64,000 nt of DNA from Flavobacteriales bacterium (GTDB taxonomy: Bacteria; Bacteroidota; Bacteroidia; Flavobacteriales_F; PHOS-HE28), in contig CP129489.1 in NCBI GenBank assembly GCA_030584065.1, forward strand, positions 1,636,640 to 1,700,639, given 5' to 3'. This document shows, piece by piece, positions 12,101-50,316 of this stretch; position 1 is the stretch's first letter, and every line of letters begins with the position of its first letter. Below the pieces are notes generated by a model. The model saw only the letters and a list, made by a program, of their open reading frames with translations. It had not been told where the DNA came from and searched no databases. The position numbers were made by a program, and so were the translations under genes.

Positions 12101-13010
12101 TGGGTGGAACACCGGCACGCCGGGCGGTACATGGTCGGGCCAGAACGTTTCCGGAGGCGTCTTCGACCCCAGCGGCCTCTCCGGCAGCATCCCCCTCACC
12201 TACACCATTGAAACGGCCGGATGCACCGCGCAATCCACACAGCCGGTGATCGTCCAATCCGCTCCTGCCGCGAATGCTGGACCCGACCAGAGCATCTGCG
12301 GAGATGCTGCCGACCTGAGCGGGACCGGGCAAGGCCAATGGACCGCCCCATCGGGCGTCACGTTCTATGGCTCGCCGCAGCAGCCCAGCGTCATCGCAAC
12401 GGCCACCGCTTATGGTACATATGCCATCATCTGGACGGAGGCCCAAGGGTCCTGCTCCGCCAGCGACACGGTGCTGGTGACCTTCCTCGACCCAGGCACG
12501 GCCCTATGGGTGGAAGCCGGCGAGGATCAGCGCCTGGAGGTGACCACGGAATCGCTGGTGACCGGCAGCGCTTCGCCCGGCGCGAGCCTGATATGGACCA
12601 TCCTCAGCGGGTCGGGCTCCTTCGCACAACCGACGGACAGCTCCACCAGCATCACCGGCCTCGCCATCGGCGACAACGTGGTGGTCCTTACCGCCAGCCT
12701 GGGGATCTGCGCCTCGGTCAGCGACACCCTGCTGATCCACGTGGCCGACCTCTTCATTCCCCAAGGCTACTCCCCGAATGGCGATGGCACGAACGACCGC
12801 TGGGTCATCACCGGGCTCGAAGCCTACCCGGCGAGCGAACTGCGGATCTTCAACCGATGGGGACATCCCGTGTATGCGACGGATCGCTACGGCAACGATT
12901 GGGAAGGGCGCTCCCACAACGGTCAGGCCCTTCCGGATGACACCTACTTCTACGTGCTGAACCTTGGTGGGAACCGAACGTACAACGGCCACGTGATCAT
13001 CAAGCGATGA
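3189..13010 (+). CDS. Giant type B T9SS surface protein with HYR domains and a 27-unit Cys/Asp-rich repeat array
   Basis: A 3273-aa secreted protein. A signal peptide (hydrophobic core CAVLAFAALACVGASVHA) follows the ATG at 3189. Residues about 35-480 look like an SBBP-type beta-propeller (repeats of the GNAYACGWF kind). Residues about 500-860 are Ig/PKD-like beta domains. About 860-1700 is a string of HYR-type modules (PPxxxCP starts, DNCG cores, closing ATCTFxxxVxD). Residues 1703-2755 are 27 exact-length 39-residue repeats with four Cys each, and a degenerate unit follows. The C-terminus has further Ig-like domains and a gliding-motility type B sorting domain (PQGYSPNGDGTNDRWVI, FNRWG, DDTYFYVL). 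It is probably a surface adhesin exported by the T9SS. The stop overlaps the next start (ATGA), coupling it to a PorP/SprF protein. Confidence 0.93.
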   Translation: MRRSRNRYACGHDCLTRCAVLAFAALACVGASVHAQPFAWPWTANLSGTHQEEVKGVAMDEQGAVVAAGYTRSTGLFAGTTGQVTGNQDAFIARYSPTGALLWAVTPDNAAESAAMDVAVDESGNAYACGWFKNTISFANPTIATGSQSLTSAGKEDWFIASWTPSGELRWAIRLGGSEADFPSCIRFGEDGPVVLGTIEGRITTGFGSIPAALPSGKDNLAIAKLTTYGVGEWLISGGSGDDELPRSLAVDGDRVYAGYHARNATMTWYGPSGAVLGTHTSTASSGIRVTALSAPGAALWTTQVAELSSALQGPAALAAGCGAVYLTGITHSPSLFPGQGTIATGTHDYGYLARLNQANGEFQWVSTGTSTGGDHLFGGTGLALTGQGLVLLSGQYSTTFTLGGITLSAPNNKTQPFVAAYLPSGQVARIDRFTSEKDATPPAIAANRNGRFAIGGAYETNLDLGTFSITGASNLNGFVASGQIDLMAMPNRSVWQPPGPVCTSAAPLNLMGFLVPFTRGHAVSVMASTGVSNAAGAVDGLSGTYAAFANAGNSITVDLGSVVPAGGTVGLTWGADAGNAIAIITTGLTMPPTHNAGSLAIGGMVDQYSGLQLVEPARYVTISRPLTGSLSFRLDAVDFAFGNDLSGTWSGPGVTGSAFSPVGLSGAIPVTYSVGHGACSTSTTGTIQVESPPNAGIDGVLSLCTPTGTFNLFAALGGNPQPGGTWSGPSAVSGNTFDAATMSGGEYTYSLAGSGGCMNTAASAQVSVSIGLPPGGGNFTGSGEVCPPPSSGMLSISGYGGSIVRWQWSENGTTWNNTSITTPSITWSNLTSPRRYRVELSSPLCPNGFSNVAVITPSDNTPPVLQCPAVSPMEDAQADANCMLQVPDFTSYFIGTDNCTPTPQMVQSPAAGTTIPFAEITVIEVRAVDATGNPSAPCQAFLLGLDASPPIVSCPGDAVISVAPGSCSAAFIPVAATYSDNCLGTGTADRIHLRTGLHSIAPFSLFDDAGWTDISGIGSVDLAPGTYTIAHIALSGTSPIALCSNTVTVGDPYPPIATCPPAHTLLYTPSGSCVALYTLPAISSSDNCPIGITPDGAFIQDGSGVLVIGGPTAPAEIDEPLPEGTQLLLPPGMHLFSDSIADAAGNLAICTWVVEVRDTIAPVFTNCPAALDTIALVNGGCMAQYIFPVLQSTDACDSDTDSDYRTWHSLDGGNNWGEVTGQWSIDLGPGAHRFREEHRDDAGRVATCSWTMIVMDQEAPAIICPAGLSLNDADGDCLELLPVLSATATDNCGPVLIVQTAGPMAGSSVGIGSHTIGYTATDGAGLTATCTFELEVIDLAPPTVWCPLMDTIHLSTGAGCAIAFPDLRDSLTITDCSAWTNTMTPSPGTVLGPGPAFLMTMWIEDAHGNGLWNNHWVRVVDQSAPSVSCPSIIATLHAGPDCTASLPDYRSSAAVSDNCGSAGLALTQAPAPGASLPPGAHSVTLTVRDAAGLSASCTFSVTVTDATPPVITGCPSAPLTMSTPFGSCNAVVSWNPPLASDACGAANITQTGGPAPGSAFSVGTHAVAYTAVDAAGNASTCSFSVVVIDQTAPTITCPTVIPGIPATSGLSGSMPDWRSLVLIADNCGTAAAGISQNPAPGTTVTGSFTVTFSIADLHGLSAQCSVTAMVVDCTGSLAAGAYLDNCGQCVGGNSGSTPCAQDCLGAWGGSALPGTPCDDGDASTGNDSWNSSCQCVGQLIDCSGSAGGSALPGTPCDDGDAATGNDSWNSSCQCAGQLIDCTGSAGGTALPGTPCDDGDASTGNDSWNSSCQCAGQLIDCSGSAGGSALPGTPCDDGDAATGNDSWNSSCQCAGQLIDCTGSAGGSALPGTPCDDGDAATGNDSWNSSCQCAGQLIDCTGSAGGSALPGTPCDDGDAATGNDSWNSSCQCVGQLIDCSGSAGGSALPGTPCDDGDAATGNDSWNSSCQCAGQLIDCTGSAGGSALPGTPCDDGDASTGNDSWNSSCQCIGQLIDCTGSAGGSALPGTPCDDGDASTGNDSWNSSCQCIGQLIDCTGSAGGSALPGTPCDDGDASTGNDSWNSSCQCAGQLIDCTGSAGGSALPGTPCDDGDASTGNDSWNSSCQCIGQLIDCSGSAGGSALPGTPCDDGDAATGNDSWNSSCQCAGQLIDCTGSAGGSALPGTPCDDGDAATGNDSWNSSCQCVGQLIDCSGSAGGSALPGTPCDDGDAATGNDSWNSSCQCAGQLIDCTGSAGGSALPGTPCDDGDASTGNDSWNSSCQCAGQLIDCTGSAGGSALPGTLCDDGDASTGNDSWNSSCQCAGQLIDCTGSAGGSALPGTPCDDGDAATGNDSWNSSCQCVGQLIDCSGSAGGSALPGTPCDDGDASTGNDSWNSSCQCIGQLIDCTGSAGGSALPGTPCDDGDAATGNDSWNSSCQCVGQLIDCSGSAGGSALPGTPCDDGDASTGNDSWNSSCQCAGQLIDCTGSAGESALPGTPCDDGDASTGNDSWNSSCQCAGQLIDCTGSAGGSALPGTPCDDGDASTGNDSWNSSCQCAGQLIDCTGVPGGSALPGTPCDDGDASTGNDSWNSSCQCVGQLIDCTGIAGGSALPGTPCDDGDASTGNDSWNSSCQCAGQLIDCTGSAGGSALPGTPCDDGDASTGNDSWNSSCQCAGQLIDCTGSAGGSALPGTPCDDGDASTGNDSWNSSCQCAGQLIDCTGSAGGSALPGTPCDDGDASTGNDSWNSSCQCAGQLIDCTGSAGGSALPGTPCDDGNEQTIDDAWTTDCGCAGTPVDCTSDAGPDQTVCGTSTTMAASGSGIWTAPTGVSLSSVTDPTAQVSAATPGAFDLLWTVAIGGCVDTDTVRITFHPTSDAAFAYGAAQYCVNGPSPAPWTAEAGGTFSAVPAGLAIDALSGSIDLSASVPGDYLVSHLIGGACPASAVAELTIIAAPNAAWTPGSVICSNHSPINLDGWNTGTPGGTWSGQNVSGGVFDPSGLSGSIPLTYTIETAGCTAQSTQPVIVQSAPAANAGPDQSICGDAADLSGTGQGQWTAPSGVTFYGSPQQPSVIATATAYGTYAIIWTEAQGSCSASDTVLVTFLDPGTALWVEAGEDQRLEVTTESLVTGSASPGASLIWTILSGSGSFAQPTDSSTSITGLAIGDNVVVLTASLGICASVSDTLLIHVADLFIPQGYSPNGDGTNDRWVITGLEAYPASELRIFNRWGHPVYATDRYGNDWEGRSHNGQALPDDTYFYVLNLGGNRTYNGHVIIKR
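8295..11453 (+). repeat. 117-bp tandem repeat array, 27 units in perfect register
   Basis: The distance from the first Asp-Cys codon (8295) to the codon starting the degenerate 28th unit (11454) is 3159 bp, exactly 27 x 117. Each unit encodes DCxGxxGGSALPGTPCDDGD then xxTGNDSWNSSCQCxGQLI. Variation is confined mainly to four codons: Ser/Thr after DC, Ala/Ser in DGDxxTG, Ala/Val/Ile before GQLI, and synonymous changes in the PGT codons. Because the unit is a multiple of three and has few stop triplets, long spurious frames stay open on both strands. Confidence 0.97.
11454..11570 (+). repeat. Degenerate 28th unit of the 117-bp array
   Basis: Begins like the other units (DCTGSAGGSALPGTPCDDG) but diverges to NEQTIDDAWTTDCGCAGTPV, keeping the Cys pattern and length. 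This is typical of an old terminal unit that has escaped homogenisation. Confidence 0.85.
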
Positions 13011-13930
13011 GGATCATCCGCCGCTCTATCCCGTTGGTAGCGCTGTGCCTCACCGCTGCGGTCCGCGCACAGCACTCTCCGCTCACCAGCCAGTACCTAT
13101 TCAACGGCTTGACCATCAACCCCGCTTATGCCGGCAGCCGCGATGTGCTCAGCGCCACGCTGACGCACCGCCAGCAATGGGTGGGCTTTGACGGGGCGCC
13201 GGTCACGCAGATGGCTTCCGTGCACGCCCCCGTGAAGCGAAGTCCGCTCGGGCTGGGCCTGGTGGTCTACAACGACCGTATCGGAGTGACCAACGAATCG
13301 GGGATCCTCTCGAACTACGCGTACCGCATCCGCACACCCAGGGGCAAGCTTGCCTTGGGCGTAGGCGCAGGCCTCACGGTTCTCCGGGCGAATTGGACCG
13401 AGGTGTCCCTGCAGCAGACAGACGATGCCGCCTATGCGGGCGCCACGCGAGCCGCGCTCCGACCCAACTTCAGTGCGGGAGCCTTGTATCAGACCAAGAC
13501 ATGGTTCCTCGGCGCATCGGTCCCCTTCCTGGTCGCTCACCGATACGATCCAACGGATGGCGCATACCGCCTCACGAACGAACGCATCAGCATGCAACCG
13601 ATGCTCACAGGCGGATGGCTGATGAAGCTCAACGACGACCTGAAGCTGAAGCCCAGCGCGCTGCTGCGCTACCGCTTGGACAGTGGATTGCAGGGTGACC
13701 TCAGCACGAATGTCATCTACAAGGACCGGATCTGGCTGGGCGTGAGCTACCGCACGCGCGATGCGGTGGTCGGGATGCTGGAGGTGCTGCCTACGCCGCA
13801 GTGGCGCCTCGGCTACGCCTACGACCTGGGCATATCCGCCCTGCGCCCGTATCACCGCGGCACGCATGAACTGCTGGTCCAGTATGAATTCGGCTACCGC
13901 ATCCGGGTAAGGGACCCGCGCTACTTCTAA
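13007..13930 (+). CDS. PorP/SprF family T9SS-associated outer-membrane protein (first module)
   Basis: A 307-aa predicted beta-barrel. It has a signal peptide ending VRAQ and then the family hallmark near the N-terminus (SQYLFNGLTINPAYAGSRD), followed by RQQWVGFDGAP and alternating beta-strand patterns to the C-terminus. PorP/SprF proteins are outer-membrane partners of type B T9SS cargos; SprF with SprB in Flavobacterium is the known example. Here it overlaps the stop of the giant cargo by 4 bp and is followed after one base by an OmpA-type protein, so it is probably the dedicated anchor or secretion partner of the 3273-aa protein. Confidence 0.92.
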   Translation: MRIIRRSIPLVALCLTAAVRAQHSPLTSQYLFNGLTINPAYAGSRDVLSATLTHRQQWVGFDGAPVTQMASVHAPVKRSPLGLGLVVYNDRIGVTNESGILSNYAYRIRTPRGKLALGVGAGLTVLRANWTEVSLQQTDDAAYAGATRAALRPNFSAGALYQTKTWFLGASVPFLVAHRYDPTDGAYRLTNERISMQPMLTGGWLMKLNDDLKLKPSALLRYRLDSGLQGDLSTNVIYKDRIWLGVSYRTRDAVVGMLEVLPTPQWRLGYAYDLGISALRPYHRGTHELLVQYEFGYRIRVRDPRYF

Positions 13931-35878: not shown

Positions 35879-38800
35879 ATGCGTCGTTCCACCTTCTTGC
35901 GTCTCGCGTTCATCGCACTCGGGATATCACTTTCCAGCCTCGGACTCCGCGCCCAGGAATACCGAAGCAAGGCCAGCGGCAACTGGAACGCCTTGGGCAC
36001 CTGGGAACAGGACAACGGCAGCGGCTGGGTTGACGCCACGGTGATCCCGACGAATGCGAGCGGGGCGATCACCATCCGCGCGCCGCATTCGGTGACGGTG
36101 ACCGCCAACGTGAGCCTCGATGATGTGACGATCGAGGCGGGCGGAACGGTGACAACAACTGCCACTGGCACGACAACATGGACCATAGCCAATGGGACCT
36201 ATGGCGTGAAGGTCTTCGGGACCTTCAATGCCAATTCCAGTGCAGGGAGCTTCGGTTGCTGCGGATCGGTCAGCGTGGAGAATGGCGGTGTGATCAACCA
36301 GAATGCCGGCGGCTCTTTCTATGGTCCGACTGTGGTGCAAGAGGGCGGCACCGTGGTGGGCAACACGCCCATCAACCTGGCTGGCGGGGCCGTGGTGAAC
36401 CATGGCACCTGGACGATGACCGGCAGCAACGGCCTGACAACCACTGCTGGCGGGTCATTCACGAACAATGGCATTCTCACGCTGCGGGGTTACTCACTGG
36501 CAGGCACGCTCACGAACAATGGAACAATCAACTGGAGCGCAGGGGTGATCAGTGGCAGTGGAAGTGGAAATATCCAGAACACAAGCGGTGCTGTATTCAA
36601 CATCTCCTTCGCTGGCGTGAACCAGCTACAGCGACCATTCACCAACCAGACCGGAGCAACGATCAACTACACCAACGCAGGGATCTTCAATACCTGGTCA
36701 GGAACCACGTTCAACAATGCGGGCACCTTGAACGTGGTCAATGGCGTATGGCAATTCATCGGAACCGTTACCAACTCCGGCACGCTGCACATACCCAGCG
36801 GCCGTTTCATCCAGTTCGATGCCACCGCCAGCCTGAATGCCGGAACGAGCATCACCGGTGGAGGAACCATCGTGAACCAGACCGGCACTGTCGCACAGAA
36901 CTTCCCGTGGACAAATAGCACTCACACCTTCAACATGAATGGAGGTGCCTGGACCAACAGCACCGGTAACCCCACTGTATTTGACGTGGGCAGCGCATTC
37001 AACTGGACCGGAGGAACGCTGGCCGGTGCAGAGGGCTATTCGATCGCCGCAGGCTTGACCGCAGCATTCAGCACCACCGCCTCGAAGACACTGAACAGCG
37101 CGCTCACCAACAACGGCACAATCAACTGGAGCGGAGGTGTGATCGGCGGTTCGGGCACCATTACGAACGCCGCTGGTGCCGAGTTCAATATCTCCTTCGC
37201 TGGCGTGAACCAGCTACAGCGACCCTTCACCAACCAAGCCGGCGCAACGATCAACTATACCAACGCCGGGGTCTTCAACACCTGGAGCGGTACCACGTTC
37301 ACCAACGCGGGCACCTTGAACGTGGTCAATGGTGTATGGCAATTCATAGGAACCGTCTCCAACTCCGGCACGCTGCACATACCCAGCGGCCGTTTCATCC
37401 AGTTCGATGCCACCGCCAGCCTGAATGCCGGTACGAGCATCACCGGTGGAGGGACCATCGTGAACCAGACCGGCACTGTCGCACAGAACTTCCCGTGGAC
37501 AAATAGCACTCACACCTTCAACATGAATGGAGGTGCCTGGACCAACAGCACCGGTAACCCCACTGTATTTGACGTGGGCAGCGCATTCAACTGGACCGGA
37601 GGAACGCTGGCCGGTGCAGAGGGCTATTCGATCGCCGCAGGCTTGACCGCAGCATTCAGCACCACCGCCTCGAAGACACTGAACAGCGCGCTCACCAACA
37701 ACGGCACAATCAACTGGAGCGGAGGTGTGATCGGCGGTTCGGGCACCATTACGAACGCCGCTGGTGCCGAGTTCAATATCTCCTTCGCTGGCGTGAACCA
37801 GCTACAGCGACCCTTCACCAACCAAGCCGGCGCAACGATCAACTATACCAACGCCGGGGTCTTCAACACCTGGAGCGGTACCACGTTCACCAACGCGGGC
37901 ACCATGAACGTGGTCAATGGTGCATGGCAATTTATGGGGACCGTCTCCAACTCCGGAACACTGCACATACCGAGCGGCCGTTCCATTCAGTTCGACGCCA
38001 CCGCCAGCCTGAATGCCGGTACGAGCATCACCGGTGGAGGGACCATCGTGAACCAGACCGGCACTGTCGCACAGAACTTCCCGTGGACAAATAGCACTCA
38101 CACCTTCAACATGAATGGAGGTGCCTGGACCAACAGCACCGGTAACCCCACTGTATTTGACGTGGGCAGCGCATTCAACTGGACCGGAGGGACGCTTGCT
38201 GGTACCGCAGGATACACCATAGAGAACGGATCAACCGGCACCTTCTCAACTGCCGCGAACAAGACCCTCAACAGTCTGCTCACCAACAACGGAACTATCA
38301 ACTGGAATGCAGGAGTGATCGCTAATGGCACTGGTGGCACTATCCTCAACGCAAGCGAAGGCATCTTCAATATCCAGTTCACCAGCACCAATCAACTGCA
38401 GGCGCCCTTCACCAACCAGCCGGGCGGCGTGGTGAACCTGAACGGATCGGGCACCTTCACTACGTTCAACAATAGCAACGGCACCTTCACCAATAACGGC
38501 ACGATCGACTTGGTGAATGGCAACTGGACCTTCCAGTCCTCCAATTCGCATAGTGCGTCCAGTGTTCTGAACATCGGCGCCTCACGCACGCTGACCTTCA
38601 CCACCGCCCCAAGCTCGTTTGCGGGCACGGTCAACAATTCCGGCACCCTCGCCGGTACCATCACCTCCTTCACCGGCACCACCTTCACCAACAACGGCAG
38701 CGTAACGCTCACCAACCTGCCCTTCGCCGGCACAGCAGCCCAAACGCTGGATGGCACCGGATCCATTACCAACCTCACGCTGAACAATGCCAACGGCCTC

Positions 38801-41800
38801 ACGCTGGGCGGCACCCAGACGGTCACGAATACGCTGACCCTTACGAATGGCCGGATCACCCTTGGCAACAACGATCTTATCCTGAGCAACACGGCGCTTG
38901 CAGGTCTCGTGGGCGGCAACGCCACCAACCACTTCGTCACGAATGGCACCGGTGCCTTCCACCGCCAATTGCCCATCGGCGGCGCCAACTACCCCTTCCC
39001 CATCGGCACGGGCACGAGCTACCTGCCGGTGACCTTGAGCAACACCAGCGGGCCTGCCGAGCGCTTCGGCGCGCGCGTGGCGAACGATGTGCACATGGAG
39101 TACAGCGCACCGGGCGTGCCCGATGGCCCCGTGGTGCTGAACGACCAGGTGGAGCGCACCTGGACACTCTCCGAACTGACGGAAGGCGGCAATCAGGCCA
39201 CGGTTCAGCTTCAATGGAACACCGCGGATGAAGGCGCGAACTTCGATCGCGCGAACAGCGGCCTGCACGCGTACAACGGCACCGATTGGGTGGCCTTGGC
39301 CTTGGGTGCCGCCGGTGGCAGCAACCCCTACACGCGGAGCACGACCGGACTTACGGCCTTCCGGGAGTTCACCGTGGCCGATGGGGAGAGCACCCTGGCA
39401 TTCAGCTGCCCCGGAGGGGTGATCCCCGGCACGGCCTGCGACGACGAGGATGATTGCACCACGAACGATGTGGTGAATGCGGAGTGCAACTGCGTCGGCA
39501 TCTTCCAGGACAGCGACAACGATGGCACCTGCAACGCCGAGGACGGCTGCCCGAATGATGCGAACAAGACCGAGCCCGGCGCCTGCGGCTGCGGCGTGGC
39601 CGATGTGCCCCAGATCTACTACGTGGACGGTGATGGCGACGGATATGGAGCCGGCGCTCCAGTGGATGGCTTCGTGTGCGTCGTACCTGCAGGCCATGTC
39701 ACGAACAACACGGATTGCAACGATGCCAATGCGAGCGTGTACCCGGGCGCACCCGAGCTCTGCGATGAACTGGACAACAATTGCAACGGCCAGGTGGATG
39801 AGCTCACGAGCTTCTCCAACGGCCTGGTGGCGCAATGGCTCTTCAACGGCAACCTGACCGACCGGACCACGAACGGGAACAATGGCAGCGCACCAAGCGG
39901 CTCCAGCTACACCACTGGGGTCGACGGCGCCGCCAATGGCGCCTTCCAATTCGGCGGTGGCCGCTATGTAGTGGTGCCGCACAATGCGGCCTACAATTTC
40001 GGCACGGGTGATTTCACCTACTCGGCCTGGCTGAAATGGAACTCCACCTCGTATGCCAGCGTGATCGACAAGAACGACTATGCGGGTGGCGGCATCAACC
40101 GTTTGAACTGCTTCGTGGACTACCCGGCCGCCGGGAACTTCATGGGCCGTCCGGGGGATGTGGTGGCAGGAACAGGGCTGGGCAACAACACCTGGCGCCA
40201 TGTGGTGATGACACGCACCGGAACGACCATCCGTATCTACTTGAACGGTGTGCTCAGCAGCAGCAGCACCATCTCGCCCATCGACCTCAACAACTCCAGC
40301 AGCATCTTCATCGGCAGGCATGGCAACAGCGACATACAATTCTACACCGGCGCGATGGACAACCTGCGGCTGTACAACCGCGCGCTCTCGGCGGAAGAGG
40401 TGGCTGAACTGCGCCTGCACGAGCTGGCGGGTAATGTGGACGGCGTGAGCGAAGTGACCTATTACACCGATGCCGATGGCGACGGCTATGGCGACCCCGC
40501 CACGATCGGATCAGGATGCACCCAGCCACCCGGTACCGTGCTGCTCGGAGGTGACTGCGACGATACCGACGAGAACATCAACCCGGGTGCATCCGAGATT
40601 TGCGACGGTCTGGACAACAACTGCGCGAATGGCGTGGATGATGGACTCGCCTTCGTCGACTACTGGCCCGACACCGACGCCGACGGCTTCGGCGATGCTT
40701 CGGCCAGCAGCATTTCCGCGTGCACACCTCCTGCGAACCACGTGACCAACAACACCGACGCCTGCCCGAACGACCCCCTGAAGCAGCTCCCCGGAGCATG
40801 CGGCTGCGGCAACGTGGAGGTGGACACGGACGGAGACACCACGCCCGATTGCATCGATGCCTGTCCGAACGACCCACTGAAGATCGCGCCGCTGCAATGC
40901 GGTTGCGGCAACTTGGAAACGGATAGTGACAACGACGGCACCGCCGATTGCGTGGACGCCTGCCCGAACGACCCGCTCAAGACCACGGCCGGCCAATGCG
41001 GCTGCGGCAACCCGGATACCGACAGCGATGGTGACGGCATAGCCGATTGTGTGGATGATTGTCCAAGCACTGCTGGCACGATCGGTTCACCCTGCAACGA
41101 CGACGATGCTACTACCGGCAACGATGCGCTCAATGCAAGCTGTGAATGCGAAGGCCAGCTCATCGATTGCCTCGGTGTTCCTGGAGGCAGCGCGCTTGCC
41201 GGCACGGCTTGCACCACGGCAGGCCTGCCCGGGATCTGGTCGGCCAGCTGCGTATGCGAACTCGAAGGCCCGGATGTGCTGGTGCAGAACGTGAGCGCAC
41301 CGAACGACACCATCGCGGGAGACGAGGTGGTGACGCTCTCGTTCGAGGTGTACAATAACGGCAACGCCGATGCCACGGTGAACTGGACCGAGCGCTTTTA
41401 CATGGAAAGCGAAGCCGGTGCCTTGCGCACGCAGATCGGGCAGTCCGCGCACAGCTCCGGCAGCCCGCTCGCCGCTGGCGCTACGCTCGGCCGCAGCGTG
41501 CAGATTACCATGCCGGCCCTGATCAACGTGGGCGATCAGGCCCGCTTCGTGGTGGAGCTGGTCCCTGGTACTGGCTTGATCGAATTGCCGAACAGCGTCA
41601 CCAACAACACGGGCACGCAGGCCACGCCTTGGGTGGTGCGCAAGCAGATCCGGCTCCTGGTGCCGCAGCCGGCGCTCACCGAAGGCGCAGCGGCAGGTGT
41701 CCCCATAACGGTGCAACGCACCGGTTCCATCTCCAATGCGCAAGTGGTCAGCATCGGCATTGATGAATCCGAGCGCTTCACCTTCCCCAGCACCGTGACC

Positions 41801-44800
41801 ATCCTCGCCGGGCAAGCCGCGCGCAGCTTCACGCTGGTGGCCATGGAGAACGCGCTGCTCGAAGGCACCATCCCGGCCGTGCTCACCGCCAGCGCCACCG
41901 GGTTCAGCAGTGCCACGCGCAACCTCACCATCCTCGACAACGAGGCCCCTGCCCTCTCCTTCTCGAACGTTCCAGCGACCACGGGCGAAGGCACCAGCGT
42001 GACCTTCCAAGTGAGCACCAACTTCGCTCCTGCCTCAGCGCTGCAGGTATTCCTCACCAGCAGCGACCAGGCGCGCTTCCCCGTGCCGGCCAGCGTCACC
42101 ATCGCTGCCAACACCACCTCGGCGAACGTGACCGTGAACCTGCCGCAGGACCAGCTGCCGGAGCTCGACATCACCGTGAACCTCACCGCCGGTGCCGCCA
42201 ACCACACGGCTGCCAACGCTTCGCTGCAGCTCACCGACGACGACCTTCCGGGCCTTCAGCTCGTGCTGCAGACGGATACCGTGAGCGAGAGCGGAGGCGC
42301 CTTCGCCGTGCAAGCCACCTTGCAGCGCACAGCGGGCAGCCCGGCCATCGCCTTCACGGCGGTGATCACGCCCAGCCTCGCGAACACCTTGCTCCTGCCC
42401 ACGAGCATCTCGCTCGCGGCTAACGCCAGCCAGCAGACCTTCACCATCGGCGTGATCGACAACGCGCTGGTGGATGGCTTCCGCACCGTGACCATCAACG
42501 CAGCGGTTCAACTGGCGGGCTGCGGATGCAACGCACCTGTATCCACCGCAGCGAATGTGAGCGCGGACCTCACCGTGGCCGACAACGATGGTCCTACGCT
42601 CACCATGTCGGTCAATCCCGCCACGCTGGCCGAAGGCCTGGCCAATGCGGGCACGATCCGTGTGCAGCGCAACACAGCAACGACCGCGGCTCTGGACGTG
42701 GCGCTGATCTCATCGGATGTCACTGAGCTCACGGTTCCCGCCACGGTGAGCATTCCCATCGGCTCGTCCTTCGTGGATGTGCCCGCTACAACCGTGAACG
42801 ATGGGACCCCTGACGGCAGCCAACAGGTGTATGTGCAGGCCACGGCCGACGGCTTCTCACCCGGCATCACCTGGTGCATCGTCACCGATGTGAACCAGCC
42901 CGACCTGCTGGTGAGCGCCGTGACCCCGAGCGCAAGCCCTTGGCCGGCCTTGGTTCCCTTCACATGGCAGGCCACCATCAGCAACACGGGCTTCGCCAAC
43001 TCCATCGCGGGCGTGCCCGTGCGCGGCGTGCTCTCGCAGAACAATATCGTGGATGCGAGCGACCCCGTCCTATTCGACTACACCATCAATACACCGGTGC
43101 CCGCAGGAGGCAGCGTGCAGATCAGCGGAGCGGCCGTCGCACCGAATCTCCCTGGCACCCACAAGCTGTTACTGCAAGTGAATCCGGGCGCATCGGCGAC
43201 CGAGCTCACCTATACGAACAATACCTCAGCGCCGGTGAACGTGAGCATCGCGCCCAGCTACACGGCCACGGCGCAGGTGGCGGGTACCACCTTCCTGCGC
43301 GGCACGACGATCCCAGTGACAGGCACCGCCGTTCGGCCCGATGCGAGCCCTGCGGCGAACGAGTCCATTGAGGTCTACGTGCTCACCAACGGCCTGCGCC
43401 GTGAAGTGCTCACCACCACGGATGCTACGGGGGCGTTCACGGCCAGCTTCGTCCCCCTCGCGAACGAAAGCGGACACTACACCATTGGCGCCAGCTTCCC
43501 CGGCATGGGGCAGACCACGGAGCAGGATGCCTTCGACATCCACGGCGTGCGGATCAACAACGGGCAATACCCGCAATTCATCACCCTCATCGGCGATACG
43601 CTCACGGGCACGCTCGCGATCCAGAACCTGAGCGATGCGCCGCTCACCAACCTGACCTTGACACCATTGAATGTTCCTGCAGGATCAACCTTCAGCTTCA
43701 CAACGATCGCCTCGCTCGCAGGCGGGGCCAGCACGACCGTCGCCTATGAAGTGAGTGGAACCGTCGTCACACCGGGCTACAACTTCCAGCCCGGCACCTT
43801 GCAAGTGACCGCCGACCAAGGCATGATCCAAAGCCAGGACCTCTACTACTACTGCATGGTGCCCGGTGGCCATATCAGCGCCGACATCACCAGCATAAAC
43901 ACGACCGTCTCCCAGGCCGCTGGCCAGCAACTGGTACAATTCCGCATTGTGAACACCGGCGGTGGCAATACCGGCGCACTCAGCCTCTCATTGCCGCAAG
44001 TTCCCTGGTTGCAGGCCATGACGCCGGTGAACATGGGGTCAATGGCGCCCGGCGATACGGCCCTGGTCATACTCCGCTTCCTCGCTGATGCCAGCGTGCC
44101 TTTCGACTTCCCCATCAATGGCACCATCGCCATCAACGGGGCGAACAGCAACAGTCTGGTGATCCCCTTCACCTTCACCAAGGTGAGCGTAACTACGGGC
44201 AACCTCACCGTGGACGCCGTGAACCAATTCACCTTCTTCGATGAGGACGAACCGCATGTGGAGGGTGCTAACGTTGAAGTGCGCCATGCCTATTCCAACG
44301 CACTGCTCGCCCAAGGAACCACGGATACCAATGGTCTGGTCTCGTTCGCCAACCTCCCCGAAGGACAGCACCGGTTGCTGGTGAGTAAGCCACAACACCT
44401 TCCCTCCGAACAACTGGTGACGATAAACGCCGGAGCGAGCTTGAGCCAGACAGTGTTCTTGAACTATCAGGCGATAACCTTCGGATGGAGCGTAGTTCCG
44501 ACGACTGTGCAGGACCAGTACGATGTGACATTGACCATGCAATTCGAGACGAACGTGCCGATACCGGTGGTGACGATCGACATGCCAGATACGATGCCGC
44601 AACTGTTCGGCGATGAGGTGTATGCTTTCAACGTGACGCTCACGAACCATGGTTTGATCACGGCCGAAGATGTCGAGCTCATCCTACCCACCCATCCGGA
44701 ATATGAGTTCCTGACGAACTACGGTACCGAGAACCTTGCAGCGTTGAGCAGCATACAGGTCCCCGTACTCATGCGCCTTCGCGATGTCCCTTTGGCCACC

Positions 44801-47800
44801 GCAGAAGGATCCGACATTGTCTTCATCTCCCAGTTACTTGGCATGAATGAAGAGGCATACAGAGACATTGAGATCGGAGGGTTCACTTGCAAGCTTTATA
44901 CCTACACCCGGTACCACTACAACTGTAACGAAGCAACGGGGCTCTATGAAACAACTGGCAAGGAATCGTATATCAAGATGCCGGGTTGTGTACCGACAGC
45001 ATCTCCAGGAAATGGGTTCCAGCCACCTCCTCCGCCCCCACCACCCGACTGTGATTGCGAATTGCTTCCTTGGTGCTGCCAGACCTATGGCCCCACACCC
45101 ACTGGGGGAGCAGATTGCATCATCTGCGTTGACCCTCCAGTGGTGAACGCAAGGATAGACTGCGCCTGTGTCTCGGACCTGCTCGGTGTCATTTCTTGTC
45201 TGCCGCTTCCGGATCCGCTTACCGCGGTATTCGGAGTCCCAGGATGCGTCGATGCAATTGAAGCGGAAGATAACTTCGAGATTTTCGTAGGGTGCATAGC
45301 TCAGTTCCTTCCTGAGCCTGCAAGTAATGTGATCGGCGACCTTGACTGTCTGAGAACTGCGTACAATGCGTTCAAGCATTGCTTCCGCAATTCACCCACA
45401 TCGCCAGCAATGACCTTCTCCTCTGTTGAGAGAGATGGACCGAATGGTGCATACCAACAGCCGTTCAACGATCTCGAACAGATCGTGCTCGCCTGGGAGG
45501 CTGACTCCTCACTGAATGCAATCTACTACGTCCAACTGATCGAACGTGAAGCAATCGATGAGCTGATAGCGATACTGGATCCATATATCAGCACCTTCTC
45601 CAACATTCCGGCTTCGGCTCAAACCATGACACGTACAGCCATTTCCGGCTCGGACATCGGCGAAAATGAAGCACAGTGGTTCATGGATCGTTGGAATGAG
45701 ACCTTGCTAGCATGGAACCAAGGCATTACCGCACCCGATGCGCAGCACCCTGACATAATCGACCGCAACGTTGTCGAAAGCCATATCGCAACGATCATTG
45801 AGGTAATCGACTACGCATCGCAAAGAGGTTATGGATCAATCTCAGAACTCTATGGGGCATTCATGGAGTTCGTGGAAGAAATCAGCACAGCACCGGATGC
45901 CGTCTGCGCCTCCGTGACCGTGCAACTGAGCCAGACCGTGACCATGACGCGTGAGGCCTTCACCGGCACGCTCGACATCTTCAATGGCCACCCCACCGAC
46001 GGCATCGACTCGCTCAGCGTGGACATCCTGATCACCGATCCGGACGGTGTGCCGAGCAACGGGCTGTTCCAGATTAACACCGAGCAGCTCACGGGCCTAA
46101 GCGATGTAACCGGCACCGGCCAGATCCCCTCGCAGGAGCATGGCATCGTGCAGTTCCTCTTCATCCCTGAGCCCGGTGCCGCGCCCACGGTGCCTGTGCC
46201 CTACTCTTTCGGCGGCTCGGTGACCTATTGGGATCCGTACAACCAGGAAATGACCACGATCCAGCTCGCAGGGATCACCCTGACGGTGAACCCGAGCCCG
46301 GACCTGATGCTTCACTACTTCATGGAGCGCAACATCCTGGGCGATGACGCGCTGACCAGTCCGGATGTGGAGCCTTCGATCCCTGCGGAACTGGCGGTGA
46401 TGATCGAGAACCACGGATACGGTGCGGCGCAGAACATGAAGATCTCATCCGCACAGCCGGAGATCGTGGAGAACGAGAGCGGACTGGCCATCAACTTCGA
46501 GCTCACTGGCAGCAACCTGCAAGGGCAGCCCGCACAACTCGGCGTGCTGGACATCCCCTTCGGCACCATTCCGCCGCTGCAGACGCGCGTGGGCCAGTGG
46601 TGGTTCACCAGCAGCCTGCTCGGCAAATTCGTTAGCTACGAAGCCGAGGTGGTGCATGCCAACAGCTTCGGCAATCCGGAGCTGAGCCTGATCCAGGGCG
46701 TAGAGCTGCATGAACTCACCCGCAGCATCCGTGAGTACGGGCCACTGGCCGATGCCATGAACGACTTCCTGGTGAACGACCAATTCGACGTGAACGACGT
46801 GCCTGACATCATCTACTTCTCGCAAGGGCGCCGCACGGCGGAAGTGCTGCCTGCCGCTGCGGCGAGCTTCAACGCACCGGTCACCGCACCCACCTTCACC
46901 AACACGCTGACCGTGCAGGCGGAAGAACCCGGCTGGAACTACACGAAGCTGAACGACCCCGGCAACGGCGACTACGACATCGTGAGCGTGACGCGCAACA
47001 GCGACGCACAGGCGATACCGCTCGACAACGCCTGGCTCACCTTCGTGACGCTGCCCGTAAGCCAGCAGCCGGTGTACGAGGACAAGTTCCACTTCGTGGA
47101 TACGCTGGCCACCACGACGCCGACCACCTACACGATCGTCTGGGCACCGAAGAACACCGACGTTCCTGCGGTGGACACGATCATCGGAGCGCCAGCATCG
47201 ATCTCCGCGCTACAGGTCACACAACTCACCGTGGTCTTCGACAAGGCCATCGACCCTGCCACCTTCACCACGGATGACCTCACGCTCACCTTCCAGGGCG
47301 GGCCGGACATCATGGACAACAGCGCCATCATCACCCAGGTCGACCCCTTCACCTTTACCGTGGACCTCACGCCGCTCACCACCGGCGACGGGCTCTATCA
47401 GTTCATCGCACAGGCGGCCGGTATCACGGACATCTATGGCATCGCCGGGGTGGCGGGTCGCCAAGTCACATGGACACAGTTCATCTCCGTCCCGGCCATC
47501 GTCGCCTTCCAAGGACTGCCAGGAGGCACCACCGATGATGAATTCAGCACCATCGAGCTGCTCTTCAACCGGCCCATCGACGAGACGAGCCTGACTGCAT
47601 CAGACATCAGCATCACCCTCGGAGGTGTGCCGCAGCCGGGAGCGCTCAGCATCACCCGCCAGAACAGCGACAGCACCTTGTTCCTGGTGAGCGGGTTGGA
47701 GAACGCGATCACCACCGATGGTGCGCATCTGTTCACCGTGAACATGCCCACCGTGCTGAGCACGGAAGGCGTCACCGGGATACAGGCGCAGAGCGTGACC

Positions 47801-49519
47801 TTGACACGCGACACCCAAGGTCCGACCATCGCCGAGCTCACTCCCTTGTTCACCGGCGGCCTCGATGCGCAGCACCGCACCGGCGTGAACATCCGCTTCA
47901 GCGTGCCTGCGACCGGGCTCACCATCGGCGCCATCGCGCTGAGCCGTGATGGCAACTCACTCCCACTGACGGCCGGTCAGCTCACACAGGTGGATCCCGA
48001 CGAATGGCGCGTGAGCGGCTTCGGGCTGGCCAGCTACCTCGATGGCGACTACGCGTTCACCGTTGATGCAACAGGCGTCACGGATGCCATCGGGAACGCC
48101 GGCAGCGGAACCGCGAACGTGACCTGGGAAGTGGACCGCAGCACGCCGATAGCCGTCACGAACGTGGGCATCGACCCCGACCTGGGCATCAGCAACAGCG
48201 ATGGCATCACCTCCTCAGGGAGCTTCAATGCCCTCTTCAACCTGAATGCGGACGCCGCACAGGTGACCATCGCCCAGACCTCCTTCGGCAGCGAGCAAGT
48301 GCTGGTGACGCTCCAGGACCTGAGCGCCGGGACACATGCTGTTCCGGTGACCTTCCCCACCGGCGGCAACACCGGATTGAAGGTGACCGCTGTGGGCAAC
48401 AACGGAGGCAGTGCAGCTGGCACGCGATCGCTCTTCATCGACCAGGCACCCTTGAGCGCGAGCTGGCAGACCGCGAACAACCAGTCGCTGACCACGGACC
48501 TGAGCAGCGCCACAATCCAATTCTCGGCGGCCGTGCTGGACCCGGGTGCGATCGCGAGCGCGCTCGGCCTGCGCAAGAACGGCCTGCCCGTTCCCGCAGC
48601 GATGCTGACCGTGACGCCGGTGAACAGCACCACCTACAGCATCGGCAACCTGCCCGCCGCAGCTAACGGCACCGGCAGTTATGAGCTCACGCTCGATGCG
48701 GCCCTCCTGAACAAGTCGACCAGTGGCATCGGCGGCGCAGGCATCGCCACGCTGAACTGGACCGTGGTGCCCAGCTACTCCGCCACCCTGCGCGCCCGGG
48801 TCTTCCTCGAGGGCCCGTATGCATCCGGCTCCATGCACGATTCGCTGCGCACGCTCATCGACTTCCCGCTGATTGAGCCGTTCACCACGCTGGGTTACGG
48901 GCATGTCGGCGGAGGAGGGGGCGAGACCACCACCCCGCAAGTGCTCGCCGTACCGGGCAACGATGCCATCGTGGACTGGGTGCTCGTGGAACTGCGCGAC
49001 CGGGACGATAACACTGCCGTGGTGGCGAGCCGTAGCGCCTTGCTGCAGCGCGATGGGGACGTGGTGGCCATGGATGGATTCTCTCCGGTGACGATCAGCG
49101 TGGGTGCTGGGGCGTACTATGTGGCGTTGCGGCATCGGAACCACCTGGGCGTCATGTCAGCCGATTCGGCGCGCTTCTACACGGGATCGACGCAAGTGGA
49201 TTTCACCCTCCTCTCCACAGCGACCTATGGAACGGAAGGCCAGAAGCAAGTTGGCGCGCGCAGGGCGCTTTGGGCAGGTGATGTGAACTTCAACGGCATG
49301 GTGCAGTACGTTGGAGAGGGCAACGACCGCGACCCAATCCTGGTGAGCATCGGTGGAAGCACGCCCACCAGCACCGCACTCGGGTACCTCCCAACCGATG
49401 TGAACCTTGACGGCCGCGTGAAATACGTGGGTGAGGGGAACGACCGCGACCCCATCCTGGTCAATATCGGCGGTTCCATGCCCACCAACATCCGTGACGC
49501 CCAACTCCCACAGCCATGA
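35879..49519 (+). CDS. 4546-aa multidomain surface giant ending in two dockerin-like loops
   Basis: The signal peptide is at residues 1-25 (FIALGISLSSLGLRAQ). An SGNW/TWE-type N-terminal domain follows to about 90. About 211-940 is Asn/Thr-rich beta-solenoid-like sequence with three 196-residue repeats. Then come MopE-like motifs (YYVDGDGDGYG; about 1240 and 1525), a LamG-like domain (about 1311-1517, LVAQWLFNGNLTDR), TSP3-like repeats (CPNDPLK, about 1620-1730), a CARDB domain (about 1800-1920), Calx-beta-like repeats (about 1930-2340), more CARDB/Ig, a Cys-rich plus helical insert (about 3000-3340), and SbsA-type Ig domains (about 3760-4300). The end (about 4464-4540) is two copies of DVNxxGxVxYVGEGNDRDPI and no recognisable T9SS domain. 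It overlaps the next gene by ATGA. Confidence 0.9.
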   Translation: MRRSTFLRLAFIALGISLSSLGLRAQEYRSKASGNWNALGTWEQDNGSGWVDATVIPTNASGAITIRAPHSVTVTANVSLDDVTIEAGGTVTTTATGTTTWTIANGTYGVKVFGTFNANSSAGSFGCCGSVSVENGGVINQNAGGSFYGPTVVQEGGTVVGNTPINLAGGAVVNHGTWTMTGSNGLTTTAGGSFTNNGILTLRGYSLAGTLTNNGTINWSAGVISGSGSGNIQNTSGAVFNISFAGVNQLQRPFTNQTGATINYTNAGIFNTWSGTTFNNAGTLNVVNGVWQFIGTVTNSGTLHIPSGRFIQFDATASLNAGTSITGGGTIVNQTGTVAQNFPWTNSTHTFNMNGGAWTNSTGNPTVFDVGSAFNWTGGTLAGAEGYSIAAGLTAAFSTTASKTLNSALTNNGTINWSGGVIGGSGTITNAAGAEFNISFAGVNQLQRPFTNQAGATINYTNAGVFNTWSGTTFTNAGTLNVVNGVWQFIGTVSNSGTLHIPSGRFIQFDATASLNAGTSITGGGTIVNQTGTVAQNFPWTNSTHTFNMNGGAWTNSTGNPTVFDVGSAFNWTGGTLAGAEGYSIAAGLTAAFSTTASKTLNSALTNNGTINWSGGVIGGSGTITNAAGAEFNISFAGVNQLQRPFTNQAGATINYTNAGVFNTWSGTTFTNAGTMNVVNGAWQFMGTVSNSGTLHIPSGRSIQFDATASLNAGTSITGGGTIVNQTGTVAQNFPWTNSTHTFNMNGGAWTNSTGNPTVFDVGSAFNWTGGTLAGTAGYTIENGSTGTFSTAANKTLNSLLTNNGTINWNAGVIANGTGGTILNASEGIFNIQFTSTNQLQAPFTNQPGGVVNLNGSGTFTTFNNSNGTFTNNGTIDLVNGNWTFQSSNSHSASSVLNIGASRTLTFTTAPSSFAGTVNNSGTLAGTITSFTGTTFTNNGSVTLTNLPFAGTAAQTLDGTGSITNLTLNNANGLTLGGTQTVTNTLTLTNGRITLGNNDLILSNTALAGLVGGNATNHFVTNGTGAFHRQLPIGGANYPFPIGTGTSYLPVTLSNTSGPAERFGARVANDVHMEYSAPGVPDGPVVLNDQVERTWTLSELTEGGNQATVQLQWNTADEGANFDRANSGLHAYNGTDWVALALGAAGGSNPYTRSTTGLTAFREFTVADGESTLAFSCPGGVIPGTACDDEDDCTTNDVVNAECNCVGIFQDSDNDGTCNAEDGCPNDANKTEPGACGCGVADVPQIYYVDGDGDGYGAGAPVDGFVCVVPAGHVTNNTDCNDANASVYPGAPELCDELDNNCNGQVDELTSFSNGLVAQWLFNGNLTDRTTNGNNGSAPSGSSYTTGVDGAANGAFQFGGGRYVVVPHNAAYNFGTGDFTYSAWLKWNSTSYASVIDKNDYAGGGINRLNCFVDYPAAGNFMGRPGDVVAGTGLGNNTWRHVVMTRTGTTIRIYLNGVLSSSSTISPIDLNNSSSIFIGRHGNSDIQFYTGAMDNLRLYNRALSAEEVAELRLHELAGNVDGVSEVTYYTDADGDGYGDPATIGSGCTQPPGTVLLGGDCDDTDENINPGASEICDGLDNNCANGVDDGLAFVDYWPDTDADGFGDASASSISACTPPANHVTNNTDACPNDPLKQLPGACGCGNVEVDTDGDTTPDCIDACPNDPLKIAPLQCGCGNLETDSDNDGTADCVDACPNDPLKTTAGQCGCGNPDTDSDGDGIADCVDDCPSTAGTIGSPCNDDDATTGNDALNASCECEGQLIDCLGVPGGSALAGTACTTAGLPGIWSASCVCELEGPDVLVQNVSAPNDTIAGDEVVTLSFEVYNNGNADATVNWTERFYMESEAGALRTQIGQSAHSSGSPLAAGATLGRSVQITMPALINVGDQARFVVELVPGTGLIELPNSVTNNTGTQATPWVVRKQIRLLVPQPALTEGAAAGVPITVQRTGSISNAQVVSIGIDESERFTFPSTVTILAGQAARSFTLVAMENALLEGTIPAVLTASATGFSSATRNLTILDNEAPALSFSNVPATTGEGTSVTFQVSTNFAPASALQVFLTSSDQARFPVPASVTIAANTTSANVTVNLPQDQLPELDITVNLTAGAANHTAANASLQLTDDDLPGLQLVLQTDTVSESGGAFAVQATLQRTAGSPAIAFTAVITPSLANTLLLPTSISLAANASQQTFTIGVIDNALVDGFRTVTINAAVQLAGCGCNAPVSTAANVSADLTVADNDGPTLTMSVNPATLAEGLANAGTIRVQRNTATTAALDVALISSDVTELTVPATVSIPIGSSFVDVPATTVNDGTPDGSQQVYVQATADGFSPGITWCIVTDVNQPDLLVSAVTPSASPWPALVPFTWQATISNTGFANSIAGVPVRGVLSQNNIVDASDPVLFDYTINTPVPAGGSVQISGAAVAPNLPGTHKLLLQVNPGASATELTYTNNTSAPVNVSIAPSYTATAQVAGTTFLRGTTIPVTGTAVRPDASPAANESIEVYVLTNGLRREVLTTTDATGAFTASFVPLANESGHYTIGASFPGMGQTTEQDAFDIHGVRINNGQYPQFITLIGDTLTGTLAIQNLSDAPLTNLTLTPLNVPAGSTFSFTTIASLAGGASTTVAYEVSGTVVTPGYNFQPGTLQVTADQGMIQSQDLYYYCMVPGGHISADITSINTTVSQAAGQQLVQFRIVNTGGGNTGALSLSLPQVPWLQAMTPVNMGSMAPGDTALVILRFLADASVPFDFPINGTIAINGANSNSLVIPFTFTKVSVTTGNLTVDAVNQFTFFDEDEPHVEGANVEVRHAYSNALLAQGTTDTNGLVSFANLPEGQHRLLVSKPQHLPSEQLVTINAGASLSQTVFLNYQAITFGWSVVPTTVQDQYDVTLTMQFETNVPIPVVTIDMPDTMPQLFGDEVYAFNVTLTNHGLITAEDVELILPTHPEYEFLTNYGTENLAALSSIQVPVLMRLRDVPLATAEGSDIVFISQLLGMNEEAYRDIEIGGFTCKLYTYTRYHYNCNEATGLYETTGKESYIKMPGCVPTASPGNGFQPPPPPPPPDCDCELLPWCCQTYGPTPTGGADCIICVDPPVVNARIDCACVSDLLGVISCLPLPDPLTAVFGVPGCVDAIEAEDNFEIFVGCIAQFLPEPASNVIGDLDCLRTAYNAFKHCFRNSPTSPAMTFSSVERDGPNGAYQQPFNDLEQIVLAWEADSSLNAIYYVQLIEREAIDELIAILDPYISTFSNIPASAQTMTRTAISGSDIGENEAQWFMDRWNETLLAWNQGITAPDAQHPDIIDRNVVESHIATIIEVIDYASQRGYGSISELYGAFMEFVEEISTAPDAVCASVTVQLSQTVTMTREAFTGTLDIFNGHPTDGIDSLSVDILITDPDGVPSNGLFQINTEQLTGLSDVTGTGQIPSQEHGIVQFLFIPEPGAAPTVPVPYSFGGSVTYWDPYNQEMTTIQLAGITLTVNPSPDLMLHYFMERNILGDDALTSPDVEPSIPAELAVMIENHGYGAAQNMKISSAQPEIVENESGLAINFELTGSNLQGQPAQLGVLDIPFGTIPPLQTRVGQWWFTSSLLGKFVSYEAEVVHANSFGNPELSLIQGVELHELTRSIREYGPLADAMNDFLVNDQFDVNDVPDIIYFSQGRRTAEVLPAAAASFNAPVTAPTFTNTLTVQAEEPGWNYTKLNDPGNGDYDIVSVTRNSDAQAIPLDNAWLTFVTLPVSQQPVYEDKFHFVDTLATTTPTTYTIVWAPKNTDVPAVDTIIGAPASISALQVTQLTVVFDKAIDPATFTTDDLTLTFQGGPDIMDNSAIITQVDPFTFTVDLTPLTTGDGLYQFIAQAAGITDIYGIAGVAGRQVTWTQFISVPAIVAFQGLPGGTTDDEFSTIELLFNRPIDETSLTASDISITLGGVPQPGALSITRQNSDSTLFLVSGLENAITTDGAHLFTVNMPTVLSTEGVTGIQAQSVTLTRDTQGPTIAELTPLFTGGLDAQHRTGVNIRFSVPATGLTIGAIALSRDGNSLPLTAGQLTQVDPDEWRVSGFGLASYLDGDYAFTVDATGVTDAIGNAGSGTANVTWEVDRSTPIAVTNVGIDPDLGISNSDGITSSGSFNALFNLNADAAQVTIAQTSFGSEQVLVTLQDLSAGTHAVPVTFPTGGNTGLKVTAVGNNGGSAAGTRSLFIDQAPLSASWQTANNQSLTTDLSSATIQFSAAVLDPGAIASALGLRKNGLPVPAAMLTVTPVNSTTYSIGNLPAAANGTGSYELTLDAALLNKSTSGIGGAGIATLNWTVVPSYSATLRARVFLEGPYASGSMHDSLRTLIDFPLIEPFTTLGYGHVGGGGGETTTPQVLAVPGNDAIVDWVLVELRDRDDNTAVVASRSALLQRDGDVVAMDGFSPVTISVGAGAYYVALRHRNHLGVMSADSARFYTGSTQVDFTLLSTATYGTEGQKQVGARRALWAGDVNFNGMVQYVGEGNDRDPILVSIGGSTPTSTALGYLPTDVNLDGRVKYVGEGNDRDPILVNIGGSMPTNIRDAQLPQP
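36508..38277 (+). repeat. 588-bp tandem repeats, three copies (last about 594 bp)
   Basis: Copies start at 36508, 37096 and 37684 with the sequence encoding LTNNGTINWS; a fourth, strongly diverged start is at 38278. Copies 2 and 3 are identical over long stretches (for example around CTCCTTCGCTGGCGTGAACC), and copy 1 differs by few bases. The encoded 196-residue unit (for example FNISFAGVNQLQRPFTNQ, FDVGSAFNWTGGTLAG) is rich in Asn, Thr and Gly, as in beta-solenoid adhesins. Confidence 0.93.
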
Positions 49520-50316
49520 CCAATAGATCCTTCACACTCGCAACGTCATGCGCCGCATGGGCGGCATGCCTCCTGCCGGTCATGGCCATGGCCCAGCAGC
49601 GGGTGGATATCCAATTGAACCGCATCGATGATGGCTCGGACCAGGTCCTGCTGATCGCGGAACAGGACTTCGATGGCCTGATCTCCAACCTGGTGCTCAC
49701 GCTGGCCTGGGATAGCACGCAATGCCTGCAAGACCCCGTACTCAGGCAGTCGGCCGAACAATCCATGGTGCTCCCCCTATCCCCATCGGGACCTGCATTC
49801 AGCAACGGCGGAATGAAATTCCGGAAATACACGGGCGTGGGCCTGGTACCGCTCCATGAATCGGCGGTTCGCTTGCAGGCGGCCAAGAGCCTGTGCATCG
49901 CGCGCATCGAAGGCGAGGCTGGCTGTGCTGCCTCGATTTCCGCTGAACCATGGCTCCGGGAACGGCGGCACAACGGCGCCTATTACGTATCGCTGAACGG
50001 CCTCGACAAGACAGGAAGGGTGATTGCGCCAGCCGCCGGTGCCGTGCCCGCTGAAGGCCCTGCAGTAGCGGTATCGCCCAACCCTTACTCCGGCGGTCCT
50101 CTGTCCTACTCCATCCATGCCGGTGCCGCCGGCAATGCAAGCATGACCCTTGAGGATTCGCAAGGCAGGCGCGTGGGCGAGTGGCCCATCACCGTAAGGC
50201 AAGGCAGCAACACCGGCACGATCTCGCCGGCATCACTTGCTGCAGGAAGGTACACCGTGCGGGTTGCCCTTCATGGGCGCGATGCCACGGTTCCGCTGGC
50301 CGTGATGGCGCGCTGA
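49516..50316 (+). CDS. Small secreted type A T9SS protein, possible cohesin-like partner of the giant
   Basis: A 266-aa protein. The ATG at 49516 overlaps the giant's stop (ATGA). The signal peptide ends VMAMAQ. About residues 28-160 form one beta-sandwich-like domain (RVDIQLNRIDDGSDQVLLIA; ISNLVLTLAWDSTQCL) with the general look of cohesin-type folds, but no clear family match can be claimed. About 185-266 is a type A sorting-like domain (VAVSPNPYSGGPLSYSIHAG and then GRYTVRVALHG). Its coupling to a giant that lacks a sorting signal but has dockerin-like loops suggests that this protein carries or anchors the giant at the surface; that is inference. Gene borders are clear. Confidence 0.82.
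   Translation: MTNRSFTLATSCAAWAACLLPVMAMAQQRVDIQLNRIDDGSDQVLLIAEQDFDGLISNLVLTLAWDSTQCLQDPVLRQSAEQSMVLPLSPSGPAFSNGGMKFRKYTGVGLVPLHESAVRLQAAKSLCIARIEGEAGCAASISAEPWLRERRHNGAYYVSLNGLDKTGRVIAPAAGAVPAEGPAVAVSPNPYSGGPLSYSIHAGAAGNASMTLEDSQGRRVGEWPITVRQGSNTGTISPASLAAGRYTVRVALHGRDATVPLAVMAR

Follow-up and report, generated by a model that had tools for sequence, protein, structure and literature searches.

How could a very large secreted protein that lacks a recognizable sorting tail reach, or stay on, the surface of a bacterium that possesses a type IX secretion system (T9SS)? The question is raised by a 64,000-nucleotide (nt) stretch (hereafter, the window) of the complete, single-contig, 3.92-Mb genome of a Flavobacteriales bacterium (GenBank assembly GCA_030584065.1, contig CP129489.1, forward-strand positions 1,636,640 to 1,700,639). 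Here, the gene of a secreted giant of 4546 amino acids (aa) (window positions 35879 to 49519, forward strand) overlaps by ATGA, at its stop codon, the gene of a 266-aa protein (49516 to 50316, forward strand). Cohesin-dockerin pairs are best known from the cellulosomes of Gram-positive anaerobes. A first-pass annotation, made from the sequence alone, had described this overlap correctly and read the two products as such a pair. Our analysis makes it probable that the end of the giant is an X-module–dockerin-like dyad docking on the small protein, a cohesin-like T9SS-tailed anchor that keeps the giant at the surface. A cohesin fold is predicted for the small protein, and profiles of relatives, together with weak fold matches of the window copy, support reading the end of the giant as a dockerin. 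From these identities, each backed separately by fold and profile searches, we infer docking of the giant on the small protein, calcium dependence, and surface anchoring.

The giant ends in a putative X-module–dockerin-like module

The giant combines a signal peptide, a long repeat region, and MopE and Laminin_G_3 domains with an X-dockerin-like module at the C terminus. Pfam and NCBIfam searches found neither a type A nor a type B T9SS tail in it, in agreement with the first-pass annotation, and the giant thus lacks the feature by which a T9SS substrate is recognized, whereas type B tails are present on two more large proteins encoded in the window (3273 and 1208 aa). Its last ~240 aa form a single module, composed of a transthyretin/X-module-like domain and two loops. 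Within this module, a 79-aa element occurs on 15 proteins of the genome, C-terminal every time and far above chance, and alignment of these copies placed the start of the conserved unit ~165 aa further upstream, at nt 48788. The X-module-like part (transthyretin/prealbumin-like beta sandwich; 48788 to 49279, forward strand), delimited by 14 to 15 aligned genome copies, is modeled with predicted local distance difference test (pLDDT) scores of mostly 80 to 94. Its conserved stretches read LEGPY..VDWVLVELR..HRNHLG..YGTEGQK..WAG in the giant and LEGPY.., VDWVLVELR, HRNHLG, YGTxARK, and LWAGD in the alignment. The first putative dockerin-like calcium loop, with the start of a helix, follows at aa 4468 (DVNFNGMVQYVGEGNDRDPI; 49280 to 49339, forward strand), and the second, delineated by sequence and profile alignment, at aa 4507 (DVNLDGRVKYVGEGNDRDPI; 49397 to 49456, forward strand), i.e., exactly the 39-residue spacing originally noted for these two motif copies. 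The conserved end, ..LVNIGGSMPTNIRDAQLPQP (49457 to 49519, forward strand), runs to the stop codon; 14 of the 15 genome copies finish there with ..QLP or ..SLP, and the window copy terminates in ..QLPQP. At the other extremity of the giant (approximately 35879 to 39000) lie about three near-identical long repeats (..GSGTITNAAGAEFNISFAGVNQLQRPFTNQAGATINYTN..).

The sequence connection to dockerins comes from relatives in other families, in which the same upstream domain precedes ordinary loops (GDxNxDGxIxxxD...GYxxxDxNLxGxVTxxD). These homologues contain two tandem 12-residue loops of the DxNxDGxVxxxD type, with an invariant D at position 12 of both. A profile of 20 such ends (A9) retrieved many solved dockerins from the PDB (best match, 2vn5_B; E = 1.9e-6), and six of 10 ordinary-loop relatives gave subthreshold matches to Pfam Dockerin_1 (best, 20.3 bits versus a cutoff of 22.9 bits). 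No NCBIfam model covers the loops. The variant present in the giant aligned to the ordinary-loop profile with a probability of 96.8% (E = 2.7e-10) and a gap of four residues preceding the acid at position 12, which is the insertion ahead of the last acidic residues that the first reading had pointed out. As far as alignment can tell, the window loop is therefore an ordinary 12-residue dockerin loop plus four extra residues. Queried against the PDB, the profile of this insert variant (A10) yielded marginal dockerin matches (E = 0.8).

The predicted structure of the module is good only over its first 165 residues. In a Foldseek search of 350,542 PDB chains, ranks 1 to 5 were all taken by X-module–dockerin chains from type II complexes (4wi0, 4u3s, 4fl4, 3kcp, and 2b59; E = 0.05 to 0.12). 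This model-based match is weak alone, yet it indicates the natural partner of a cohesin and was obtained independently of the small gene.

The overlapping gene encodes a predicted cohesin-like protein with a T9SS tail

The 266-aa protein is a putative cohesin-like T9SS anchor in which the single beta-sandwich domain and the type A tail of the first-pass annotation were both recovered. It begins with a signal peptide (aa 1 to 26; 49516 to 49593, forward strand), assigned from the sequence and from an N-terminal pattern like that of its paralogues. The cohesin-like beta-sandwich domain follows (aa 27 to 172; 49594 to 50031, forward strand), delimited by an AlphaFold2 model with pLDDT scores of 88 to 97 over most of its length, by PDB matches, and by a 42-member family; a tighter alignment of this family retrieved 45 loci. 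The C-terminal domain (aa 184 to 266; 50065 to 50313, forward strand) adopts an immunoglobulin (Ig)-like fold in the model and matches the T9SS type A model TIGR04183 (E = 0.0026). Taken alone, the protein reaches 17.7 bits with TIGR04183, below the cutoff of 23. Its family profile, in turn, matches solved T9SS C-terminal domains (8glk, E = 2e-6; 8glj; RgpB), and three paralogues in the genome (71044, 756007, and 765847) pass the cutoff, so that the type A tail, as read from these profiles, is secure at the family level. The small protein thus unites what defines a T9SS type A substrate, namely, a signal peptide, a TIGR04183-type domain, and a genome with a T9SS, here represented by SprA.

The AlphaFold2 model is confident (mean pLDDT of 86; about 90 for the cohesin-like domain) and shows the nine-strand jelly roll of cohesins. 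All chains that VIA-align placed across residues 1 to 150 were cohesins (Z = 7.9 to 9.2), the best being CaCohA2 (6kge; Z = 9.2, 120 aligned residues, 3.4 Å), 5nrm (9.0), 2jh2 (8.5), and 1aoh (8.4); Z scores of 8 to 9 are middling on the program's own calibration, and the family of matches is consistent. The remaining rows fell on the T9SS tail, with its ordinary Ig-like fold. The Pfam cohesin model gives no match to the protein, and we therefore file it only as cohesin-like.

Modules and anchors in the genome and across the phylum

Proteins bearing the module in this genome include M36 and M12B metalloproteases, lysyl-oxidase-like proteins, a P-domain protein, sugar-dehydrogenase/PKD/PA14 proteins, proteins with T9SS-associated galactose-binding repeats, and a SprB-repeat protein, all by Pfam, besides adhesin-like proteins. 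Pfam revealed no glycoside hydrolase among the 15 hosts, and no tandem-cohesin scaffoldin was found in the genome, which has four single-cohesin-like proteins; a cellulosome proper was rejected on these two grounds. The domain of the small protein is present in those four copies, each with a T9SS tail, and the ratio of 15 modules to four recognizable anchors suggests that one anchor may serve several clients. The anchors other than that of the window are paralogues at genome positions 70573, 755491, and 760312. Two anchors sit directly behind module genes: that of the window and anchor 760312, which follows the module gene at 759407 to 760138. Upstream of the latter module gene, at a distance of two genes, lies anchor 755491. 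The chance of two of four anchors landing that near modules is about 1e-6. The surrounding cassette (locus L022, 7500 to 18182; genome positions about 755400 to 766100) starts with a cohesin-like T9SS type A gene and a secreted gene with a sorting-like tail and continues with a lysyl-oxidase-like module protein and a 1961-aa T9SS type A protein with an N-terminal cohesin-like domain. The genome (G000) encodes at least about 148 type A tails over the cutoff, i.e., its surface is very heavily T9SS dependent.

The first-pass annotation had tied the pairing to co-occurrence of the two domains in other genomes, and this was borne out. Among 30 near relatives, 19 contain both domains and 11 contain neither, although 18 of these 19 belong to one genus and represent fewer independent events than the count implies. 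Within that genus, each genome searched has 1 to 6 cohesin-like domains and 5 to 48 modules (46 modules to one cohesin-like gene in G005 and 48 to four in G008, where contig 52 carries several copies close together). The module was found in 51 (22 families) of 395 genomes sampled across the phylum; four of these 51, and no genome outside them, have the cohesin-like domain. Neither set of genomes offered a cohesin-like domain without a module. Outside the genus, the cohesin-like domain lies just downstream of a module in four of five cases: cohesin-like genes are directly behind module genes in G043 (two) and G122 and two genes behind in G107, while the lone cohesin-like gene of G018, from another family, starts 63 bp behind a module gene.

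The arrangement extends to genes that follow modules in general. At 60 module sites sampled in other families, the next gene is co-oriented within 350 bp in 54 cases and has a signal-peptide-like start in 51, with a median gap of 23 bp and frequent overlap. Among complete next genes, 28 of 49 encode a type A T9SS tail by Pfam, versus six of 47 genes further on (P = 5e-6; the counts are those of Pfam, as distinct from a custom T9SS tail profile that is partly circular). SprA is encoded in all 51 module genomes versus 303 of the 395 overall, which is modest evidence, given that the SprA-negative genomes among those listed come mostly from one family. Visual inspection and architecture suggest cohesin-like N-terminal domains in the products of the next genes, an identity that sequence methods do not establish. 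The profile of these domains from other families (A8) has no sequence match in the PDB and no hhalign link to the window family, and hence we do not claim homology of all anchors in the phylum.

A direct junction of the two domain types was found in G043, in which a signal-peptide protein fuses a Pfam-level cohesin (25.9 bits; cutoff, 24.1) to the module, in the manner of an adaptor. At this locus (L093, contig 12), the fusion gene is followed by a second module protein with a beta-sandwich-like start and then by a T9SS-tailed anchor, an order that resembles cargo, adaptor, and anchor in series.

Proposed docking and competing explanations

A cargo with a signal peptide and no outer membrane tag, encoded next to a partner with a T9SS tag and a socket-like domain, is most simply read as half of a noncovalent docking pair. 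The dockerin-like loops of the giant, probably stabilized by calcium, would dock onto the cohesin-like face of the small protein; the T9SS would export the latter and anchor it to the surface, and the tail-less giant would thereby be held on the cell noncovalently. Two variants of this scheme can be envisaged. Either the complex would form in the periplasm and pass through the wide T9SS pore, or the cargo would leave separately and be captured outside. Proteins cross the T9SS in the folded state, by way of a very wide pore. Other systems are known to move complexes by hitchhiker transport (PMC9251779), and the two together make carry-through plausible; the lack of any other export signal on the cargo tilts us slightly toward it. 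A broader version would be a general tether-assisted route, whereby signal-less clients load in the periplasm on cohesin-like T9SS adaptors via calcium X-dockerin modules and cross the pore folded, with up to ~48 clients per genome sharing few adaptors and the gene pair being phylum-wide; this generalization is possible, but we advance it tentatively.

Several observations weigh against docking of the giant on its small neighbor. Pfam dockerin and cohesin models match neither window protein, the loops that constitute the dockerin part are modeled with a pLDDT below 50, and the X-dockerin fold matches are weak (VIA-align Z of about 4). Elsewhere in the phylum, hhalign detects no link between the window cohesin-like family and the next-gene domains of other members, and none of the 49 next genes reaches the Pfam cohesin model. 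Within the genome itself, a cohesin-like gene is directly behind just two of the 15 module genes. Finally, the small protein retains only 26 of 49 sites conserved among its relatives, whereas the module of the giant is typical of its family, so the former may be drifting or may differ in partner specificity. The two anchors directly behind modules at loci L172 and L173 are likewise divergent (25 of 45 conserved sites), and the stand-alone, mostly unlinked type of anchor is well conserved; linked anchors may thus be either pair specific or relaxed. In sum, a divergent anchor, the small protein, lies next to an ordinary giant module, and the two need not be exclusive partners.

The strongest competitor overlaps with the proposed docking and differs only in where docking takes place. 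It posits an extracellular multiprotein matrix, akin to a cellulosome scaffold, in which cargo exported along a different route would be captured. The excess of modules (5 to 48) over cohesin-like proteins (1 to 6) per genome, the G043 fusion, which is reminiscent of adaptor scaffoldins, and the presence of metalloproteases and oxidases among the cargo are all in keeping with such a matrix, as is the cohesin scaffoldin with a surface-attachment C-terminal domain (CTD) reported together with dockerin peptidases in "Candidatus Stygibacter" (PMC8542988). However, no tandem-cohesin scaffoldin was found here, nor any glycoside hydrolase among the module hosts, and no alternative outer membrane route is known for the cargo. 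We regard the matrix as a conceivable, somewhat doubtful alternative.

Alternatively, the C-terminal module could be a new T9SS sorting signal that the secretion machinery reads without an intermediary, with the downstream gene encoding just another T9SS protein; the first-pass annotation had itself named this outcome as fatal to its proposal. A sorting signal would fit a module that is nearly always C-terminal, has a conserved end (..QLP or ..VP), sits on many unrelated hosts, takes the place of type A/B tails in this genome, and is confined to SprA-positive genomes. Nevertheless, no known T9SS signal corresponds to the motif. The module is related to dockerins and does not have the Ig-like fold of T9SS tails, and, unlike known tails, it is not strictly terminal, at least 30 residues trailing it in some genomes (G255 and G248). 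A signal would also leave the conserved downstream anchor gene and the co-occurrence with the cohesin-like domain unexplained. We thus consider this explanation unlikely. Operonic coexpression of two unrelated secreted proteins, whose cohesin and dockerin likeness would reflect a common fold and a calcium motif without interaction, draws on the abundance of beta sandwiches and EF-hand-like loops and on moderate fold scores, but it is about as unlikely, given that cohesin is the sole fold matched over the small-protein domain, that dockerins dominate the profile matches, that overlapping or adjacent pairing is kept across many families, and that a natural cohesin-module fusion exists.

The recurrence of this gene pairing across the phylum probably indicates how proteins without an export tag reach the surface or stay on it. 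If docking on T9SS-tailed anchors is correct, a T9SS-anchored pair in Flavobacteriales and 21 other sampled families would explain the surface arrival of large tail-less proteins and would bring many unannotated proteins into the predicted surface proteome. It would also amount to a plug-and-socket for Gram-negative surface display and raises the testable question of whether the T9SS transports noncovalent complexes.

Comparison with known systems

Full-text literature searches, with subscription journals mostly outside their coverage, returned no description of this cohesin-like/dockerin-like pair. One published study states that no cohesins or dockerins were identified, as in other Bacteroidetes genomes (PMC5831590), and for Melioribacter the cellulases were reported to contain none (PMC3534657).

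In the layout of the genes, the pair resembles T9SS type B cargo with a PorP/SprF partner, an example of which lies in the same window (3189 to 13930): the gene of a 3273-aa type B giant again shares an ATGA overlap with its downstream neighbor, a gene of the PorP/SprF family at 13007. There, however, a PorP/SprF membrane protein takes the role of the helper, and a type B tail is part of the cargo itself. In mechanism, the proposed carry-through is reminiscent of hitchhiker or piggyback transport by Tat (hydrogenase) and into peroxisomes, where a signal-less subunit is carried by a signal-bearing partner (PMC9251779), although these are other systems and membranes and carriage of complexes by the T9SS is our extrapolation.

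In architecture, the closest counterparts are type II cohesin–X-module–dockerin complexes, such as the CipA XDoc of Clostridium thermocellum (2b59, 4wi0, and 3kcp), whose X-like beta sandwich followed by two calcium loops at the C terminus, and whose separate cohesin-fold partner anchored to the cell, both have putative counterparts here. The loops of the giant differ in their 4-residue insertion and in the short helices that follow. Moreover, the anchor belongs to a Gram-negative bacterium and has a T9SS tail instead of S-layer domains or a sortase signal, its cargo does not consist of glycoside hydrolases, and single-cohesin anchors take the place of scaffoldins. The nearest published precedent that we found is "Ca. 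Stygibacter" (Cloacimonadota; PMC8542988), in which dockerin-type peptidases accompany a cohesin protein attached via a CTD of the T9SS kind. Whereas that system relies on one 3755-aa tandem-cohesin scaffoldin with a surface-attachment CTD, the one described here belongs to Bacteroidota and features small anchors of one cohesin-like domain each, some of them encoded immediately after individual cargo genes, and its modules combine an X-module-like domain with loops that have diverged.

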